This document shows, in pieces, positions 56,484-64,000 of a DNA stretch of 64,000 bases. The DNA is from Actinokineospora pegani. Lineage in GTDB: Bacteria; Actinomycetota; Actinomycetes; Mycobacteriales; Pseudonocardiaceae. The notes beneath the pieces were generated by a model. That model worked only from the letters and a program-made list of their open reading frames with translations. It did not search any database and was not told the origin of the DNA. A program made the position numbers and the translations under genes. The stretch covers positions 62,001 to 126,000 of the forward strand of contig NZ_WHOL01000117.1 of NCBI RefSeq assembly GCF_009745975.1, in the 5' to 3' direction. Numbering within the stretch: position 1 is the stretch's first letter; every line of letters starts with the position of its first letter.

Positions 56484-56954
56484 TCACCAGCGGTAGTGGG
56501 CGAAGGCCTTGTTGGACTCGGCCATCTTGTGGGTGTCCTCGCGTCGCTTCACCGAAGCGCCAAGGCCGTTTGCGGCGTCGAGCAGCTCGTTCTGCAGACG
56601 CTCGATCATGGTCTTCTCGCGGCGGGCCTGGGAGAACGACACCAGCCAGCGCAGCGCGAGCGTGGTCGAGCGACCCGGCTTGACCTCGATCGGCACCTGG
56701 TAGGTGGCGCCACCGACGCGGCGGGACTTCACCTCGATGGTGGGCTTCACGTTGTCCAGGGCGCGCTTGAGCGTCACCACGGGGTCGGTGCCGCTCTTCT
56801 CGCGGGCACCCTCGAGGGCCCCGTAGACGATGCGCTCGGCAACGGAGCGCTTCCCGTCCTTGAGGACCTTGTTGATGAGCTGGGTGACCAACGGCGAGCT
56901 GTACACCGGGTCGGAGATCAGCGGCCGCTTAGGGGCCGGTCCCTTGCGGGGCAT
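56484..56954 (-). CDS. rpsG: 30S ribosomal protein S7
   Basis: S7 organises the 30S head and, in E. coli, regulates the str operon. The 156-residue product starts [20 protein letters not shown] and has [15 protein letters not shown] and the C-terminal [13 protein letters not shown]. The ATG at 56954 is one base from the rpsL stop. Confidence 0.98.
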
Positions 56955-56955
56955 G

Positions 56956-57330
56956 TCAGCTCTTCTCCTTCTTCGCGCCGTAGTGGCTGCGCGCCTGCTT
57001 GCGGTTCTTCACGCCCTGCGTGTCCAGCGAACCCCGGATGATCTTGTAACGGACACCCGGGAGGTCCTTCACTCGGCCACCGCGCACGAGCACCATCGAG
57101 TGCTCCTGCAGGTTGTGACCCTCGCCCGGGATGTAAGCCGTGACCTCGATACCGCTGGTCAGCCGCACGCGGGCGACCTTGCGGAGTGCGGAGTTCGGCT
57201 TCTTCGGGGTGGTGGTGTACACGCGGGTGCACACGCCACGCCGCTGCGGGCTCCCCTTGAGAGCCGCAGTCTTCTGCTTGGCGACCTTGTCCTGGCGGCC
57301 CTTGCGGACCAGCTGCTGGATCGTGGGCAT
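56956..57330 (-). CDS. rpsL: 30S ribosomal protein S12
   Basis: S12 monitors decoding. The 124-residue protein starts [15 protein letters not shown]. The two regions where streptomycin-resistance changes arise read TPKKPNSA and RVKDLPGVR, both wild type. It begins the str operon rpsL-rpsG-fusA-tuf. A TTGACC/TATCTT promoter lies ~280 bases upstream. Confidence 0.98.
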
Positions 57331-57611
57331 AGACCGGCTTTCTCTATCTGCTTCTCAACACCCTGCCGGGCGCCGAAGGCACTGTGTACTTGCGGTTCCT
57401 GCTGCTCCGCCCGCCCCCCGAGGTCGGGCGTGTCGCCCGGCCTCGAAAGCCGTCCGCGGGGCAATGTCACCATCCCTGCGGTGTTCGGGAGGAACTCCGG
57501 CGTGACTGGCAGGAGTCCGACGGCTGACGGGGAGGTGAATCTCCGTCTCGCAGTCCGACCGCGCGGCACAGGCACACGGACCGACCCGACATGGGTCGGG
57601 CACGAACACAA

Positions 57612-57641
57612 AAGATACCCCGGCCTCGAACGGCGGGTCAA
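57612..57641 (-). promoter_or_regulatory. Predicted vegetative promoter of the str operon
   Basis: On the minus strand TTGACC (57641-57636) and TATCTT (57617-57612) are 18 bases apart. The -35 lies within GTTTTGACC, identical to the rplM promoter at 15851-15879. The ~280-base leader to rpsL (57331-57611) contains no gene that I can support. Confidence 0.7.
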
Positions 57642-57720
57642 AACGGGGTCCCCTTACACCGGCGCGACCACGCGCCGCGCGCACCGCCCGGGTCGTCTCA
57701 CTGTGTGGTGCAACACAAAA

Positions 57721-57744
57721 CCCCGCCGGGTATTCCCGACGGGG
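57721..57744 (-). terminator. Terminator of the small gene next to the DUF5753 regulator
   Basis: CCCCGCCGGG (57721-57730) and CCCGACGGGG (57735-57744) form a ten-pair stem with one mismatch around TATT. TTTTGTG follows on the minus strand. It lies 20 bases past the stop at 57765 and shields the rpsL promoter region. Confidence 0.8.
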
Positions 57745-57764
57745 CCCGCGGCGTGGGTGGGCGC

Positions 57765-57936
57765 TCAGAAGCGCACCCGCCCCTCCAGCGCCACCCTGGC
57801 CACCTCGACGAAGTGCTCCAGACCGGCCCGAGTGCAGACGAGCTCGACCTCCTCGAACCCGTGGCCCAACTGGAGGGAGATGTGCTCGTCGGGGTACTGC
57901 TCGAAGGCGATCGGGGTGTCTCGCTCCTCTACTCAT
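57765..57936 (-). pseudogene. Small conserved-looking gene with a broken start
   Basis: A ~50-residue frame ending at 57765 has clear protein character: FEQYPDEHISLQLGHGFEE then VELVCTRAGLEHFVEVA. It has no ATG, GTG or TTG before this sequence; the frame is closed by a stop at 57935-57933. An ATG at 57936 is in the neighbouring frame, and a +1 change in the AGTAGAG stretch would join it to the protein. GAGGAG lies 12 bases before an in-frame ATC, so rare ATC initiation is the alternative. A good terminator follows. It is divergent from the DUF5753 regulator across possible operators. Confidence 0.5.
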
Positions 57937-57958
57937 ACGGCTTTCGTGGAGAGTAGCG

Positions 57959-57999
57959 CTATAGGCATAGCCGGAGAGATAGCACTATCGAGTGATATC
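57959..57999. promoter_or_regulatory. Candidate operator between the small gene and the DUF5753 regulator
   Basis: Three short palindromes are packed into an AT-richer gap: CTAT-AGGC-ATAG (57959-57970), GATAG-CA-CTATC (57978-57989) and GATATC (57994-57999). They share a CTAT/ATAG half-site and lie just upstream of the regulator gene, so autoregulation is plausible. Confidence 0.45.
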
Positions 58000-58031
58000 G
58001 TAAGCACGATGGGTGTTGGGATACTGGCCCG

Positions 58032-58907
58032 GTGGAACGAGTCGATCCCTCGGCACTGCGCTGGCTCATCGGTGTCGAGCTGGCGCACTACCGCAAGCAG
58101 GCGGACAAGTCACAGGCCGAGACGGCAAGGGCGCTGGGCGTGAGCCCGGGGATGATCGCCCACTTCGAGGTGGGCAGGTACTTCCCGTCCCCGGACCAGA
58201 TCGCCAAGATGCTGGGCTTCTACGACGCGCCCGCGCACGACGTGGAACGCCTGTCGTGGCTCGCGGGCCGCGCCGACGAGCGGAGCTGGCTGGCGCGGTG
58301 GAGCGACGTCCTGCCGGACTGGCTGCGCACCTTCATCGGCCTGGAGGCACTGGCGTCGCACATCGTCACGTACTCGCCGATGGTGCTCTACGCCTTGGTC
58401 CAGACCCGCGAGTACTCGGCGGGCGTCACCGCGGCGAGCGCGCGAGTCCGCGCCGACCAGGAGGACCGGATGGTCAACCTGCGGATGGAACGGCAGAAAC
58501 TCGTGCTCAGGGACGAGAACCCGACGCGGCTCACCCTGCTGCTCGAGGAGTCGGTGCTGGACCGGCCGATCGGCGGGGCCAATTCCCGCGAGGTCATGCG
58601 CGGCCAGCTCAAGCACCTGCTCGAACTGGGCAAGCGCGACAACATCGAAATCCTGTTGCTGCCCAGTGCGATCGGCCGCCACGACGGCCTCGAAGGCAAG
58701 TTCACGCTGCTGCACTTCCAGGACGCAGAAGGCCAACAGCAGGCGCAGTCGGTCGTCTACGTAGAGATCCCGGACGACAGCATCTACATCCAGGATCAGC
58801 GCCAAGTAGCCCAGTACACTCGCAACGCGAACCAGCTACGCGGTGTCGCGCTCTCCGAACAGAAGTCCGCCGCCGCGATCACGAAGCGGCTGGCCGCCTT
58901 GGACTGA
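58032..58907 (+). CDS. XRE-family regulator with DUF5753 domain
   Basis: The 291-residue protein has an N-terminal helix-turn-helix (about 10-65; KSQAETARALGVSPGMIAHFE) and a C-terminal DUF5753 domain (about 85-280) with WLRTFIGLEALASHIVTYSP and LLEESVLDRPIGG. This architecture is abundant in actinomycetes and is nearly always followed by a DUF397 gene, as here at 58923. The pair is often viewed as a toxin-antitoxin-like or developmental regulator module; that is family knowledge, not shown here. The GTG at 58032 has no evident ribosome site. Palindromes upstream suggest autoregulation. Confidence 0.92.
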   Translation: MERVDPSALRWLIGVELAHYRKQADKSQAETARALGVSPGMIAHFEVGRYFPSPDQIAKMLGFYDAPAHDVERLSWLAGRADERSWLARWSDVLPDWLRTFIGLEALASHIVTYSPMVLYALVQTREYSAGVTAASARVRADQEDRMVNLRMERQKLVLRDENPTRLTLLLEESVLDRPIGGANSREVMRGQLKHLLELGKRDNIEILLLPSAIGRHDGLEGKFTLLHFQDAEGQQQAQSVVYVEIPDDSIYIQDQRQVAQYTRNANQLRGVALSEQKSAAAITKRLAALD

Positions 58908-58922
58908 GTCTGGAGACCCCGA

Positions 58923-59096
58923 ATGAGCACCGCCACCCACACCTGGCGCAAGTCGACCCACAGCAGCAACGGCTCCGACTGCGTTGAGGTCCGCTCTGAC
59001 CTCGCAGGCATCCGCGACTCCAAGAACCCCGGCCCAGCCCTGCACACCCCCACCACAGCCCTGGTCGCCGCCATCAAGGCCGGTCGCCTGGGCTGA
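58923..59096 (+). CDS. DUF397 domain protein
   Basis: This 57-residue protein (ATG 58923) has the DUF397 pattern: WRKSTHSSNGSDCVEVRSD near the start, IRDSKNPGPAL in the middle and a hydrophobic C-terminal segment ALVAAIKAGRLG. It begins 15 bases after the regulator stop and is followed by a strong hairpin at 59111. The family is actinomycete-specific; its usual partner is the adjacent DUF5753 regulator. Confidence 0.92.
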   Translation: MSTATHTWRKSTHSSNGSDCVEVRSDLAGIRDSKNPGPALHTPTTALVAAIKAGRLG

Positions 59097-59110
59097 GCCC
59101 CGCGCACTGA

Positions 59111-59149
59111 CGAGCGACCCCCACCGGGGGTTCCGGCGGGGGTCGCTCG
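59111..59149 (+). terminator. Terminator after the DUF397 gene
   Basis: CGAGCGACCCCC (59111-59122) pairs with GGGGGTCGCTCG (59138-59149); an inner CCGG pair extends the stem. Nearly the same hairpin recurs at 60179-60216. Confidence 0.8.
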
Positions 59150-59245
59150 CCCACCTGGGGCTAGTTGTTTCAACCCCCGGTACGAGGCACGCGCGATCCG
59201 CTAGCGTCGCTCCCGTTGATTTGGGGTCAACCGGGGGAGCACCAC

Positions 59246-59635
59246 ATGCCATTCGATCAACCACAGGACGTAGGCGCGATTGGCGCTTCAATGGCCCAGT
59301 TCGTGAACGCCGCCTCAGCAGGCCAGTTCGCCGTCAACGAACAAGGCGGCCAAGCCCTGATCGCTGCCATCGACCAACTCCAAGACTGGCTCGTCGACAA
59401 CCTGTACAAGCTCCGAGACCTTGAGCAGGAACCGCCGTTGGGCTCGAGCCACGCCGCAGAGGTCATGAAACCCTTCATGGTGAATGTGGCCACCGATCAT
59501 CAAGGATTCTTGACCCAACTCAGGGCGTTGAACGAGAATCTCGCCAAGGCGCGTAAGGCCATAGAAATCGCCATGAGCAACTACCAGCAGACCGATAGCG
59601 ATATCACGGCCGCATTGACCCGAGAGGAACCCTGA
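59246..59635 (+). CDS. Helical 129-residue protein, T7SS substrate candidate
   Basis: The protein has no family I can name. It is mainly helical, with NAASAGQFAVNEQGGQALI in the N-terminal third and a C-terminal helix ending SNYQQTDSDITAALTREEP, in which YQQTD fits the YxxxD export signal. No WXG tripeptide is present. The ATG at 59246 follows GGGGGAG. Its stop overlaps the ATG of a DUF3558 lipoprotein (TGATG), so the two are coupled. A secreted protein paired with a surface lipoprotein is a reasonable inference. Confidence 0.7.
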   Translation: MPFDQPQDVGAIGASMAQFVNAASAGQFAVNEQGGQALIAAIDQLQDWLVDNLYKLRDLEQEPPLGSSHAAEVMKPFMVNVATDHQGFLTQLRALNENLAKARKAIEIAMSNYQQTDSDITAALTREEP

Positions 59636-60174
59636 TGAGGCGCACACTTCTGACGACCACAGCAGCAGCCCTCATCCTCACCGCCTGCACATCCACCACC
59701 CCAGGCACACCCACCCCCGACCGTGCCACCACACCCACCAGCACCGCCCAAACAACAGAACCGTCGCAATCCTCCGACACCCTCGCCGATCTCGACCCCT
59801 GCACCCTGCTCACCACCGAAGCCAGAACAGAACTCAAAGGCGAAACCACCCCACTGGAAGACGAACTACCATCCAGTAGGTCATGCCGGTGGAACACAGA
59901 CGACGTCCTCGACGGCGCCAAGTTCGGTTTCGGCATTACTATCTTCCCCAAACTCGGCGTCGACAAAGTGAACTCATACGGCCCCAAAACCGAGATCACC
60001 ATCAACGGCCGAAGAGCCGTCAAAGCCACCGGCGCGGCTGGCACCGTCTACTCCATCTGCTTCGAGATAACCCCCACCTCCCGCGTCGACGTCTCCTACG
60101 CAGGCGGTGATGGCGACCCGAAGTGGGCAAGAGTCCAGCGGCTCGCCGAACTCGTCGAGCCAGAACTGCCATGA
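59635..60174 (+). CDS. DUF3558 lipoprotein
   Basis: The 179-residue protein has a lipoprotein signal peptide with lipobox LTAC at Cys18, a Thr/Pro/Ser-rich linker (about 19-50) and a DUF3558 domain beginning near LDPCTLLT with a paired Cys in SRSCRWN and a later YSICFEI. It should be anchored on the outer face of the membrane. DUF3558 lipoproteins are numerous in Pseudonocardiales and of unknown role. Local GC is lower than in the ribosomal operons, in keeping with accessory DNA. Confidence 0.85.
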   Translation: MRRTLLTTTAAALILTACTSTTPGTPTPDRATTPTSTAQTTEPSQSSDTLADLDPCTLLTTEARTELKGETTPLEDELPSSRSCRWNTDDVLDGAKFGFGITIFPKLGVDKVNSYGPKTEITINGRRAVKATGAAGTVYSICFEITPTSRVDVSYAGGDGDPKWARVQRLAELVEPELP

Positions 60175-60178
60175 CAGC

Positions 60179-60216
60179 GAGCGACCCCCACCGGAATGGT
60201 CCGGCGGGGGTCGCTC
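60179..60216. terminator. Bidirectional terminator between convergent genes
   Basis: GAGCGACCCCC (60179-60189) pairs with GGGGGTCGCTC (60206-60216), with an inner CCGG/CCGG pair. It lies five bases past the lipoprotein stop and ten from the stop of the convergent peptidase, and is a near copy of 59111-59149. Confidence 0.8.
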
Positions 60217-60226
60217 ACTTCGAGGG

Positions 60227-60979
60227 TCAGATGCCGCAGCTCGGAGCGCTCCACAGCCGCCCCGAGCGGGCGGCGACGTGGACGTGGTCGTTGTGGCCGG
60301 GGTAGCCCGGGCCGAGGATCTCGGAGAAGCCGTGGTTGCGGGCCTGGCGGGACAGGGCGCAGAAGCCGTGCACGCCCGCGCCGAGGTCTGCGGCGTCGCC
60401 GTAGAGGTGGCGGCTGGCGGGGGCGCCGCCGACGGCGTTGTTGCAGGAGACGCTGCGGAAGCCGCCGTTGACCTGGATGGGGCGGTCGCCGAGGGCGTGG
60501 CGCATGGCCTGGAGCTTCCACATGGTGACCAGGGCGTTGGCCTTGGCCTGGGCGGCTGAGACGTTGCCGCCGGACCAGGTGCTGTTGCAGCGGTTGAGCT
60601 CGCTGTAGGCGAAGTTCACCGGGGTGCAGTCCGAGTCCTCCAGGGAGGACAGCTTGGCGAAGGTCGCCGGGCCGGCGACGCCGTCCGCGCTGAGGCCGTA
60701 GGCCTGCTGGAAGCGGGTGACGGCGGCCTTGGTGCCCGGGCCGAACTGGCCGTCGATGGCGAGCACGCCGCCGTAGCCGGGGTAGCCGGACACGCGGATC
60801 TGGAGCTGGCGGACGTCCGTGCCGGACGCTCCCTGGGACAGGGTGCGGCTGAACGAGTAGCAGCTCGCGGTCGGGGCGAACGGCTGCGCGCTCGCGGGCG
60901 CGGAACCGATGACGAGGCCAGCCAGGATGACGGCGGCGAGCAGGGGGACGACAGCCAGGCGCTCGGCCAGTCGCTTCAC
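60227..60979 (-). CDS. Secreted peptidoglycan-binding D-Ala-D-Ala carboxypeptidase (M15-like)
   Basis: The 250-residue protein has a Sec signal peptide (1-~32), a peptidoglycan-binding domain (about 48-110; QGASGTDVRQLQ, DGQFGPGTKAAV) and a C-terminal zinc peptidase domain. The metal motif SRHLYGDAADL (~195) and the C-terminal HNDHVHVA match M15 carboxypeptidases of the Streptomyces albus G type. The GTG at 60979 follows GGAGG. It should trim peptide stems in the wall. Six cysteines suggest disulfides in the exported protein. Confidence 0.92.
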   Translation of the reverse strand: MKRLAERLAVVPLLAAVILAGLVIGSAPASAQPFAPTASCYSFSRTLSQGASGTDVRQLQIRVSGYPGYGGVLAIDGQFGPGTKAAVTRFQQAYGLSADGVAGPATFAKLSSLEDSDCTPVNFAYSELNRCNSTWSGGNVSAAQAKANALVTMWKLQAMRHALGDRPIQVNGGFRSVSCNNAVGGAPASRHLYGDAADLGAGVHGFCALSRQARNHGFSEILGPGYPGHNDHVHVAARSGRLWSAPSCGI

Positions 60980-61236
60980 GGGGCACCTCCGGGTTCGGTG
61001 AGTGACACGCCCGAGCCTGACCCGCCCGCGCGACAGCGGTCAACGAATCACGATGCAGATAGGGGTTCTGCCATCCGTTGACCCCTCAACACCCCGTATG
61101 CGGTCGACTACTGATTCGACTTCTATTCCATCGCGCCCAGCCCGTGCTTTCCAAGATCGCTCAACAAGGGCGTGATTGAGCTTCATCGCAGGTCAGAGAT
61201 GTCTCGATATCAAAGGCTGCGCGTGAATCAGATCAC

Positions 61237-61678
61237 ATGAACTTGGGATGGATTGCTCGGTTCTTGTCGTGTTTCGGGCTGCTCGCTCGGCCCCCTCAGC
61301 TCGCAGCGGGCGCGGCCCAACCGGGGCTGGCGCAAGCTGGGCTGGCTGGTGCTGAGCGCCCTCTCCATCGGCGGCACCGGGATCTGGGTCATGTACTTCG
61401 TCGCCATGCTCGGTTTCGCCGTCGACGACACCGAGATCCGCTACGACCTGCCGCGCACCCTGGTCAGCCTGGCCCTGTCGACGGCATCGTGCTCGTCGGC
61501 CTGTTCGCCGTCGTCGCTGGGCGGCATGAGCTCGTACTCCTTCTTCGCCCCGCTGGCTATGATCATCGGTCTGATCACCGCGGCGTCCCTGCTGACGGTG
61601 GCCATCTCGGCCAGCGAGCAGGAGATCGAGGAGGAGCTGTGGGTCGAATCCCAGTTGACCGACCTCGCCTCGCGCTGA
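61237..61678 (+). pseudogene. Decayed MHYT-domain membrane sensor gene
   Basis: Pieces of an MHYT-type membrane protein appear in alternating frames: GWIARFLSCFGLLAR (near 61250), then in another frame WLVLSALSIGGTGIWVMYFVAMLGF (61350-61420) and IRYDLPRTLVSLALS, then back in the first frame GIVLVGLFAVVAG (61488-61530), then FFAPLAMIIGLITAA. Reassembly needs about three frameshifts, and most of the seven-helix domain is missing. In the diagnostic motif His is replaced by Tyr (VMYF instead of VMHF). The remnant ends at 61678, overlapping a lipoprotein gene that starts inside it. Confidence 0.75.
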
Positions 61679-62016
61679 CCCTCGTCCTCGCCGCGCTGCT
61701 CACCGCCTGCGGCACGAGCGCGCACAGCGGCCCGCACCCGGAGGACGACCTCCTGAACGCCCTGTCCGACGCCATCGAGGCCCAGGACGAGCAGGCCGCC
61801 CTGGCCCAGCTCTGCCCCGGCGTCACCGACACCGACGACCTGCGGAGCGTGCTGTCCCGCCGGTACGTCGTCGGCGACTTCGAGGTCAGCGAGGACAACG
61901 CGATCCTGCCCATCTCCCCCGAGTACGACACCCGCGGCGGCGCGATCGACCTGGTGGTCGTCGTCGAACACCGCGACGGCGCCCACTGCGCCTCCTCGGT
62001 GGCCCTCCCCCGCTGA
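61639..62016 (+). CDS. Small lipoprotein of unknown function
   Basis: The 125-residue protein starts with GTG at 61639, preceded by GAGGAGGAG. A basic N-terminus and hydrophobic stretch lead to a lipobox LLTAC at Cys24; the mature part is acidic at first (HPEDDLLNALSDAIEAQDEQ) and contains two further Cys (LCPG; AHCAS). The fold resembles small actinobacterial lipoproteins of the NTF2-like size class, but I cannot assign it. Its start lies within the 3' end of the MHYT remnant, so it may originally have been translationally coupled to that gene. Confidence 0.75.
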   Translation: MGRIPVDRPRLALTLVLAALLTACGTSAHSGPHPEDDLLNALSDAIEAQDEQAALAQLCPGVTDTDDLRSVLSRRYVVGDFEVSEDNAILPISPEYDTRGGAIDLVVVVEHRDGAHCASSVALPR

Positions 62017-62023
62017 CCCCGTG

Positions 62024-62605
62024 TCAGGAAAGGCTGACGCGTTCCACGCAGAAGACGTTGCTCTTGTCACCGCGGAGGTCGATCAGGACCTTGATGTCAC
62101 CGGACTTGTCGTAGGGGTCCGCTGTCTTGGCTTTCAGCGAGATGGTCGCGGACGCGCGGAAGCGCTCTTCGACGTGCGCGATGTTGAGGCCGGCGCGGGC
62201 GGGCTCCCACTCGGTGCCGTTGATACTCGTGACGACCCGCCGTGAGTTCTCGTCGGCGTCCGCGCAAAGCCCGGCCATGCTCCGCGAGGTGCCCCCGCCC
62301 TCCAGCCCATACATGAAGTCGCGGGCTGTCCGCTCCGCCTTTCTCGGGTCGTAGACCACCGGCGCGGGCGGAGGCGGCGGGGGCTCCGCTTTGAACAGCC
62401 CCTTCAAGTAGCCCGGCCACAGGAAACCCGTGAGCAGGAAGGCCACGACGCACATCGAGAACAGGATGAGGAACGCCGTCAACCCCGGGCTCGATCCCTG
62501 GCTCGGCGGCGGATACCCCGGCGGCCCGTACCCGGGCTGCGGTGGGTACCCGTGCTGCTGCTGCGGCGGGTGAGGCTGCTGCCCGCCCTGTCCTGGATAA
62601 ACCAC
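62024..62605 (-). CDS. Pro/Gln-rich single-pass membrane protein
   Basis: From the GTG at 62605, preceded by GGGGGGA, the protein is 193 residues. Residues 1-45 are Pro/Gly/Gln/Tyr-rich (YPGQGGQQPHPPQQQHGYPP), followed by a transmembrane helix (about 50-72) and an extracytoplasmic domain with Cys residues (AGLCADAD, VFCVERV) that looks like a DUF4878/NTF2-like fold of actinobacterial membrane proteins. A TTG at 62632 would add nine residues. It is convergent with the small lipoprotein gene, with seven bases between stops. Confidence 0.75.
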   Translation of the reverse strand: MVYPGQGGQQPHPPQQQHGYPPQPGYGPPGYPPPSQGSSPGLTAFLILFSMCVVAFLLTGFLWPGYLKGLFKAEPPPPPPAPVVYDPRKAERTARDFMYGLEGGGTSRSMAGLCADADENSRRVVTSINGTEWEPARAGLNIAHVEERFRASATISLKAKTADPYDKSGDIKVLIDLRGDKSNVFCVERVSLS

Positions 62606-62673
62606 TTCCCGGTCCCCCCGGTCGAGAATCAAGACCGCATCACCTTAGACCGAGCACGATGGACAGCGACGGG

Positions 62674-62709
62674 AAAGGCCCCCGACACCACTTGGCGTCG
62701 GGGGCCTTT
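62674..62709 (-). terminator. Intrinsic terminator of rpoC
   Basis: AAAGGCCCCCGAC (62674-62686) pairs perfectly with GTCGGGGGCCTTT (62697-62709) around a ten-base loop, 18 bases past the rpoC stop. The A/T ends of the stem supply the U-tract. Confidence 0.92.
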
Positions 62710-62727
62710 CTTGTCCTAACTAGAGCT

Positions 62728-64000
62728 TCAGCGGTAGTCGCGGCCGAAGTCGTAGTCGTCCAGGGGGACAGCCGCGCCGGTGCCGGTGCCGAAGACGTCG
62801 GGGGTGTAGTACCCGTCGTCGTAGCTGGGGATGGCGTAGGCGGCCACTCGGGCCTCCTCGGTGGGCTGGACCTGGATGTTGCGGTACTTGTTGATGCCGG
62901 TGCCCGCGGGGATCAGCTTTCCGATGATCACGTTCTCCTTGAGGCCGATGAGCTTGTCGGAGCGGCCGTTGATGGCGGCGTCCGTCAGCACTCGGGTCGT
63001 CTCCTGGAAGGAGGCGGCCGACAGCCAGGAGTCGGTGGCCAGGGAGGCCTTGGTGATGCCCATCAGGACCGGGCGGCCGGAGGCGGGCTCGCCGCCGGAG
63101 GCCACCACGCGGCGGTTCTCGGACTCGAACAGGGCGCGCTCGATGAGGGCGCCCGGCAGGAACTCCGCCGCGCCGCTGTCGAGGATCGTGACCCGGCGCA
63201 GCATCTGCCGGACGATGACCTCGATGTGCTTGTCGTGGATGGACACGCCCTGCGCGCGGTACACCTTCTGGACCTCGTCCACCAGGTGGAGCTGGGCCTC
63301 GCGCGGGCCCATCACGCGCAGCACCTCGTGCGGGTCCCGGGTGCCCTCGAGCAACTGCTGGCCGACCTTGACGTGGTCGCCGTCGGACAGCGGGCCGTCC
63401 GGGGTGGCGGCCAGGCGCTGGCGCTTGGACAGCTTCTCGAAGATGATCTCCTCGGACCCGTCGTCGGGGGTGAGGGTGATCTTCCAGAACCGGTCGCCGT
63501 CCTCGATCCGCACGCGGCCGTCGACGTCGGCGATGGGCGCCTTGCCCTTCGGGACGCGGGCCTCGAACAGCTCCTGGACACGCGGCAGACCACTGGTGAT
63601 GTCGTCGTTGACGACGCCACCCTGCTGGAACGTGCGCATGGTCAGCTGGGTGCCGGGCTCACCGATCGACTGGGCGGCGACGATGCCGACCGCCTCGCCG
63701 ATGTCCACGAGCTGGCCGGTCGCCATGGAGCGGCCGTAGCAGGTGGCGCAGACGCCGACCGCCGCCTCACAGGTCAGGACCGAGCGGACCTTGACCTGGG
63801 TGACGCCGGAGGACAGCAGCTTGTCGATGGCCGGGTCGCCCAGGTCGTCGGCGCGGTTGAGCAGCACGTTGCCGCTGGCGTCGCTGACGTCGTCGGACAC
63901 GCAGCGCGCGTAGATCGAGGTCTCCACGTGCTGGTCGCGCAGGACCGTGCCGTCGGGCATGGCCTCGCCCAGCGGCATCATGATGCCCCGGGTGGTGCCG
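62728..64000 (-). CDS. rpoC: RNA polymerase beta-prime subunit, C-terminal part
   Basis: The ~423 visible residues cover the bridge-helix-proximal and C-terminal parts of beta-prime. Zinc-binding cysteines appear in [23 protein letters not shown], followed by [21 protein letters not shown], the N-terminal arm of the trigger loop. There the invariant His (E. coli H936, MRTFH) is replaced by Gln: the sequence is MRTFQQGG. The rest is conserved ([56 protein letters not shown]). The gene runs off the right edge of the window; rpoB would be upstream. Confidence 0.97.

Follow-up and report, generated by a model that had tools for sequence, protein, structure and literature searches.

In a 64,000-nucleotide stretch of the Actinokineospora pegani genome (hereafter, the window), the 3′ part of rpoC, which encodes the β′ subunit of RNA polymerase, specifies glutamine at the position of the trigger-loop histidine known as His936 in Escherichia coli. 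This Gln is a trait of a lineage of soil bacteria comprising most Actinokineospora species and not of one strain, and Gln at this position is rare but recurrent among bacteria. Observed here are the substitution, its linkage to two residues at the loop tip, its old age, the single-copy state of the gene, and the repeated occurrence of Gln elsewhere; from these we infer the chemistry of the Gln and its compensation: on balance, the housekeeping polymerase of most Actinokineospora species probably uses Gln as a positional catalyst, with the tip changes offsetting the loss.

A glutamine trigger loop in a single-copy rpoC

The rpoC frame of the window has its stop at 62728 and is open up to the right edge (Table 1). 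A first-pass annotation, made from the letters of the window alone, had read its trigger loop as TMRTFQQGG, with a CAG codon for Gln at the His936 position, which our reading of the minus strand confirmed. The window RpoC matched solved bacterial β′ chains in a phmmer search (E 3.6e-212), the alignment covering residues 2-423 of the 423-residue query, and its Gln aligned to His in two of these chains. The canonical His936-type loop, with His at the β-phosphate contact, is therefore absent, and Gln (CAG) stands in its place. The other residues contacting the nucleoside triphosphate (NTP), namely Gln929, Met932, and Arg933 in E. coli numbering, are kept within an unchanged GTQLTMRTF, of which we take TMRTF to be E. 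coli residues 931-935. The annotation was also right that a near-invariant His is replaced in a sound frame: the whole-genome rpoC is a 1313-codon open frame with zero internal stops (1308 amino acids from the first GTG), and a frameshift was rejected because the frame is intact. In being full-length, in its NADFDGDQ and GTQLTMRTF motifs, and in the adjoining of rpoB and rpoC, the gene resembles mycobacterial and E. coli rpoC; it differs from them in having Gln for the catalytic His and Val and Asn five and six residues further on (His+5 and His+6). These two tip residues are altered alongside Gln, so the earlier statement that everything around the substitution is normal holds for TMRTF and the frame and fails for the tip.

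Table 1. Features of the window (positions counted from its first nucleotide)
Feature	Position	Strand	Remark
rpoC 3′ part (RNA polymerase β′ subunit)	62728..64000	-	gene runs past the right edge of the window
Trigger loop T-M-R-T-F, unchanged	63628..63642	-	sequence read
CAG, Gln at the E. coli His936 position	63625..63627	-	plus-strand ctg
CAG, second Gln (His+1)	63622..63624	-	also Gln in His-form Actinokineospora, hence outside the change
GTC, Val at His+5, linked change	63610..63612	-	Ala in the 4 His-form Actinokineospora genomes
AAC, Asn at His+6, linked change	63607..63609	-	Gly in the 4 His-form Actinokineospora genomes
Helix-turn-helix-type regulator open reading frame	58032-58907		reading of translation
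Peptidoglycan-binding/peptidase-like open reading frame	60227-60979	-	reading of translation

The genome containing the window (G000) is a 6.44-Mb draft in 128 contigs, 99.36% complete. It gave one rpoC match, so the second rpoC for which a look-up had been advised was not found in it, and a search across it for the His-form loop pattern yielded no match. A single rpoC copy in this draft genome indicates that the Gln enzyme is the housekeeping one. While a draft in 128 contigs could in principle hide a sequencing error, a pseudogene, or a second copy behind the Gln, the reading frame is intact, the gene is single-copy, and Gln recurs in 11 other Actinokineospora assemblies, which leaves this explanation a negligible probability. 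Moreover, those 11 are separate assemblies with differing synonymous codons around the Gln, which excludes the sequencing error that the annotation had still entertained.

Distribution and history within Actinokineospora

In a survey of relatives, 56 of the 61 genomes searched gave a match, and loci could be read from 30. Among these, 12 of the 16 Actinokineospora genomes, including that of the window, read QQGGVVN, and the remaining four (G001, G007, G010, and G014) read HQGGVAG; Val and Asn occupy His+5 and His+6 in all 12 Gln genomes, and Ala and Gly occupy them in all four His genomes. His was found in 14/14 loci read from other genera, and of five more genomes read from the same family or order, four have His and one (G028) has Gln. 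The substitution is thus a lineage trait, and not the single-strain change that the annotation had supposed. Across the 390 Pseudonocardiaceae genomes scanned for the Gln pattern only, it was present in 13, namely the 12 Actinokineospora genomes and G028, which belongs to another genus.

In a 34-genome alignment, we scored a position as a fixed difference when all 12 Gln genomes shared one residue there that none of the four His genomes had. Four RpoC positions qualify, namely the three residues of the loop and a D/E site variable outside the genus, so the change is concentrated in the loop. Three positions qualify in RpoB, namely A981V, a D/E site, and the initial residue of the N-terminal open frame. 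RpoB residue 981 (numbered on the G000 open frame) is Val in 12/12 Gln genomes and Ala in the four His genomes, in 17/17 outgroups, and in G028.

The Actinokineospora Gln genomes diverge from one another at 9 to 31% of fourfold-degenerate rpoC sites, indicating that Gln is old and has been kept. On a DNA tree of rpoB and rpoC, the His clade of G007, G010, and G014 has the Gln genome G013 as its sister and falls within the Gln genomes (100/99), and a tree of the unlinked gyrB and gyrA gives the same nesting beside G013 (98/99). This placement, together with a His-clade trigger-loop tract that is unusually close to the basal His genome G001 (0.025 in a 105-nucleotide window versus a mean of 0.108), would be expected if the loop segment were a small cassette shared between species of the genus by homologous recombination, and so changed by gene conversion and not by repeated mutation. 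We consider this unlikely, because (i) approximately unbiased (AU) tests did not reject a single Gln clade (p 0.093 and 0.081 for rpoB+rpoC and gyrB+gyrA, respectively); (ii) the RpoB+RpoC protein tree unites the 12 Gln genomes, with a Shimodaira-Hasegawa-like approximate likelihood ratio test (SH-aLRT) value of 93; (iii) the loop tract is closer to G001 than nearly all other rpoC windows are, but it is surpassed by one N-terminal rpoC window, and several rpoB windows show a similar skew towards G001, so the loop does not stand out; and (iv) recombination is powerless to explain Gln origins in other phyla. Within the genus, recombination may have restored or spread the loop. As a side observation, all 16 Actinokineospora genomes carry a second, more distant gyrB-like gene that falls below the family cut-off (G000:C99:24923-26923).

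Recurrence across bacteria

We scanned 84,980 species for an exact GTQLTMRTF followed by a Gln codon, a pattern whose scope excludes loops with altered flanks or with residues other than His or Gln. The scan yielded 56 stretches, 10 from Actinokineospora and 46 from others: 39 Bacillota metagenome-assembled genomes (MAGs; 23 labelled Defluviitaleaceae), four Pseudomonadota, one Actinomycetaceae, and two unclassified. Each of the 56 falls in an RpoC-like open frame, several of these frames being truncated where the available sequence ends. The sample codes of many of the Gln-bearing MAGs (among L032-L087) presumably denote termite-gut metagenomes. A pattern of the same kind found no His-form loop in 58 of the 59 Gln genomes (the 46 others plus the 13 Pseudonocardiaceae), and this, with the one rpoC in G000, speaks against a resistance paralogue of the kind in which a second rpoC accompanies a normal one. 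The sole exception is the SAR116 single-cell genome G445, which holds both Gln-form and His-form rpoC stretches (L071 and L188), perhaps through contamination or a true second copy.

On a tree of 189 rows, with His relatives added, the minimum is 18 His/Gln changes, of which starred branches force 13; gains and losses of Gln both count, and the tree was built quickly and drew long-branch warnings, so the exact number is soft. The clearest origins of Gln are those of Actinokineospora, G028, the Lachnospiraceae sequence L051, and the Actinomycetaceae sequence L040. A single clade unites 20 Gln MAGs, of which 19 are labelled Defluviitaleaceae. For G028, the RpoB+RpoC tree places it as sister to the His genome G027 (SH-aLRT 100), and the same tree built without the loop columns needs two His/Gln changes, and starred branches force both. 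Gln was thus gained separately in another lineage of the Pseudonocardiaceae, with the same two tip positions altered. Our literature searches, which covered open-licence papers and left most subscription papers outside, found no report of a natural Gln at this position.

The loop tip, catalysis, and alternative explanations

The strict tip [VI]AGDDI occurs in 0/59 Gln sequences and in 38/132 His sequences, counts that come from related rows and a non-random sample. In three contrasts, the His sister has an AG-type tip and the Gln side lacks Gly at His+6: (i) Actinokineospora; (ii) G028, which reads QQGGVTADD, with Thr and Ala at the two tip positions altered in Actinokineospora; and (iii) L051, which has Gln with AESN, its His sisters L186 and L187 having AGDD. 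Elsewhere, His relatives already carry longer, mostly Gly-less tips, and Gln is found there on an unaltered tip; L035, L036, L050, L066, and L086 have Gln with Gly kept at the His+6 place in a different tip. We rejected the idea that Gln generally requires an altered tip, non-AG tips being common to His relatives in Defluviitaleaceae, Oscillospiraceae, and Actinomycetaceae. The pattern would fit tips that are either permissive or compensating. We take the two linked tip positions, on our own alignment, to be A1090 and S1091 of yeast RNA polymerase II (Pol II); Pol I retains the trigger-loop His.

We propose that, when the loop closes on the incoming NTP, the side-chain amide of Gln would replace the imidazole and contact the β-phosphate via a hydrogen bond and shape, and that the leaving pyrophosphate would be protonated by water or other groups. 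Since Gln alone is expected to slow catalysis, the tip changes are probably compensatory, with the Ala-to-Val and Gly-to-Asn substitutions probably shifting the open/closed balance of the loop and thereby offsetting the loss. The E. coli paper arguing for a positional catalyst is reportedly that of Mishanina 2017.

In published work, the trigger-loop His contacts the NTP phosphates and is called invariant or absolutely conserved, and the tip (Thr1083-Ser1091) docks in a pocket of the bridge helix, funnel, and hybrid-binding domains. An alanine at the His position costs ∼100-fold in Thermus aquaticus and 6-fold in E. coli, and water has been put forward as an alternative proton donor. In yeast, an H1085Q mutant showed a slight growth defect, H1085 substitutions by A, N, D, or F being lethal, and H1085Q and H1085L slowed elongation 2- to 10-fold, which supports the suggestion of the first-pass annotation that Gln could plausibly serve as a positional catalyst. 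Further, an H1085Q mutant combined with the gain-of-function trigger-loop substitution E1103G had intermediate activity, and E. coli H936Q slowed RNA hydrolysis only ∼3-fold in correct complexes.

The Actinokineospora loop shares its substitution with these laboratory mutants, of which the yeast one is viable, but its Gln is natural, long kept, part of the sole polymerase, and linked to tip substitutions. The H1085Q/E1103G double mutant likewise pairs a loss-of-function His substitution with a second trigger-loop change, one that raises activity in yeast; in Actinokineospora, however, the second sites are His+5 and His+6 and not E1103, and any activity gain there is putative. By our alignment, the yeast Pol I loop offers natural substitutions at the same two tip positions (A1090G and S1091A relative to Pol II).

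Several points weigh against positional catalysis with a compensating tip. First, the Gln genomes do not form one clade within the genus on the DNA trees. Second, in other lineages Gln sits on tips that are the same as those of the His relatives (IASNED and IASAED), with no added change, so tip compensation is not general. Third, a yeast H1085L mutant is healthy, and hence hydrogen bonding by Gln may not be what matters. Fourth, T. aquaticus polymerase without the His loses RNA hydrolysis by >200-fold, which would predict a proofreading cost; a loss of the Gre proofreading factors linked to Gln is unsupported, since GreA_GreB does not track the trait, being present in 16/16 Actinokineospora genomes, Gln and His alike, and in 42/46 of the other Gln genomes (mostly MAGs, possibly incomplete). 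Fifth, the Pol I-type tip changes A1090G and S1091A cause loss of function when placed in Pol II, and PMC5127505 reports no convincing link between tip helix propensity and phenotype.

Some of the same observations bear on near-neutral drift, by which a mild speed loss would be tolerated, His to Gln (one transversion) would fix occasionally, and the tip changes would be incidental. The slight defect of the yeast Gln mutant, the Gln tips that equal those of His relatives in some lineages, and the several other Gln carriers that stand as lone sequences in the tree would suit such a process. Drift nevertheless accounts poorly for the persistence of Gln with the same Val and Asn across 12 genomes that diverge at up to 31% of fourfold sites, for the clade of 20 Gln MAGs, and for a tip altered in 3/3 contrasts with an AG-type His sister, and we regard it as an improbable explanation.

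Another alternative is that the Q-V-N loop was selected to weaken a natural trigger-loop inhibitor (streptolydigin- or tagetitoxin-like), self-made or from neighbours. Three residues are altered together, the trigger loop is a known streptolydigin and tagetitoxin target according to PMC3737540, and the RpoB rifampicin region carries an unusual pair (D to Q and A to D) in G000, G004, G012, and G013, and also in G023, which belongs to another genus. In G000, the RpoB gene (L104 5317-8820, minus strand) adjoins rpoC outside the window, and its rifampicin region reads SQFMQQTNPVDGLTHKRR in place of the usual SQFMDQ, a pair that we take to be D516Q with 522D in E. coli numbering. The pair, found in 5/34 aligned genomes scattered on the tree, does not follow Gln, being present in 4/12 Gln genomes and in G023, which has His. 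Moreover, residues 936, 941, and 942 are not named as contacts in the available part of PMC4029172, the one paper searched for these numbers, and our literature searches found no support for a direct inhibitor-resistance link, biosynthetic clusters and inhibitors not having been sought in the genomes. Adaptation to an inhibitor therefore seems quite unlikely.

Returning to Gln as a positional catalyst, we put forward a broader statement, tentatively and at somewhat less than even confidence: the "absolutely conserved" His would be dispensable in nature, with Gln swapped in many times and, in AG-tip backgrounds, as a package with the tip that combines a catalytic loss with a folding gain, perhaps recombined among Actinokineospora genomes within this essential gene. 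There has been a debate of many years over whether the trigger-loop His is a proton donor or only positions the NTP, and PMC7619134 treats the precise role of this absolutely conserved residue as an open question. Living cells apparently transcribe wholly with a Gln enzyme, showing that growth can proceed without an acid-base His. Pairs of natural Gln and His species within one genus, separated by a handful of fixed polymerase differences, are direct material for a test of this and of the possible compensating role of the tip. Accordingly, inhibitor design and alignments should not take His936 to be immutable.

Elsewhere in the window, an rpsG-like open reading frame (56484-56954) is separated from rpoC by the stretch 56955-62727, which holds the regulator-type and peptidase-like frames of Table 1 and also small secreted-type frames, named from their translations.
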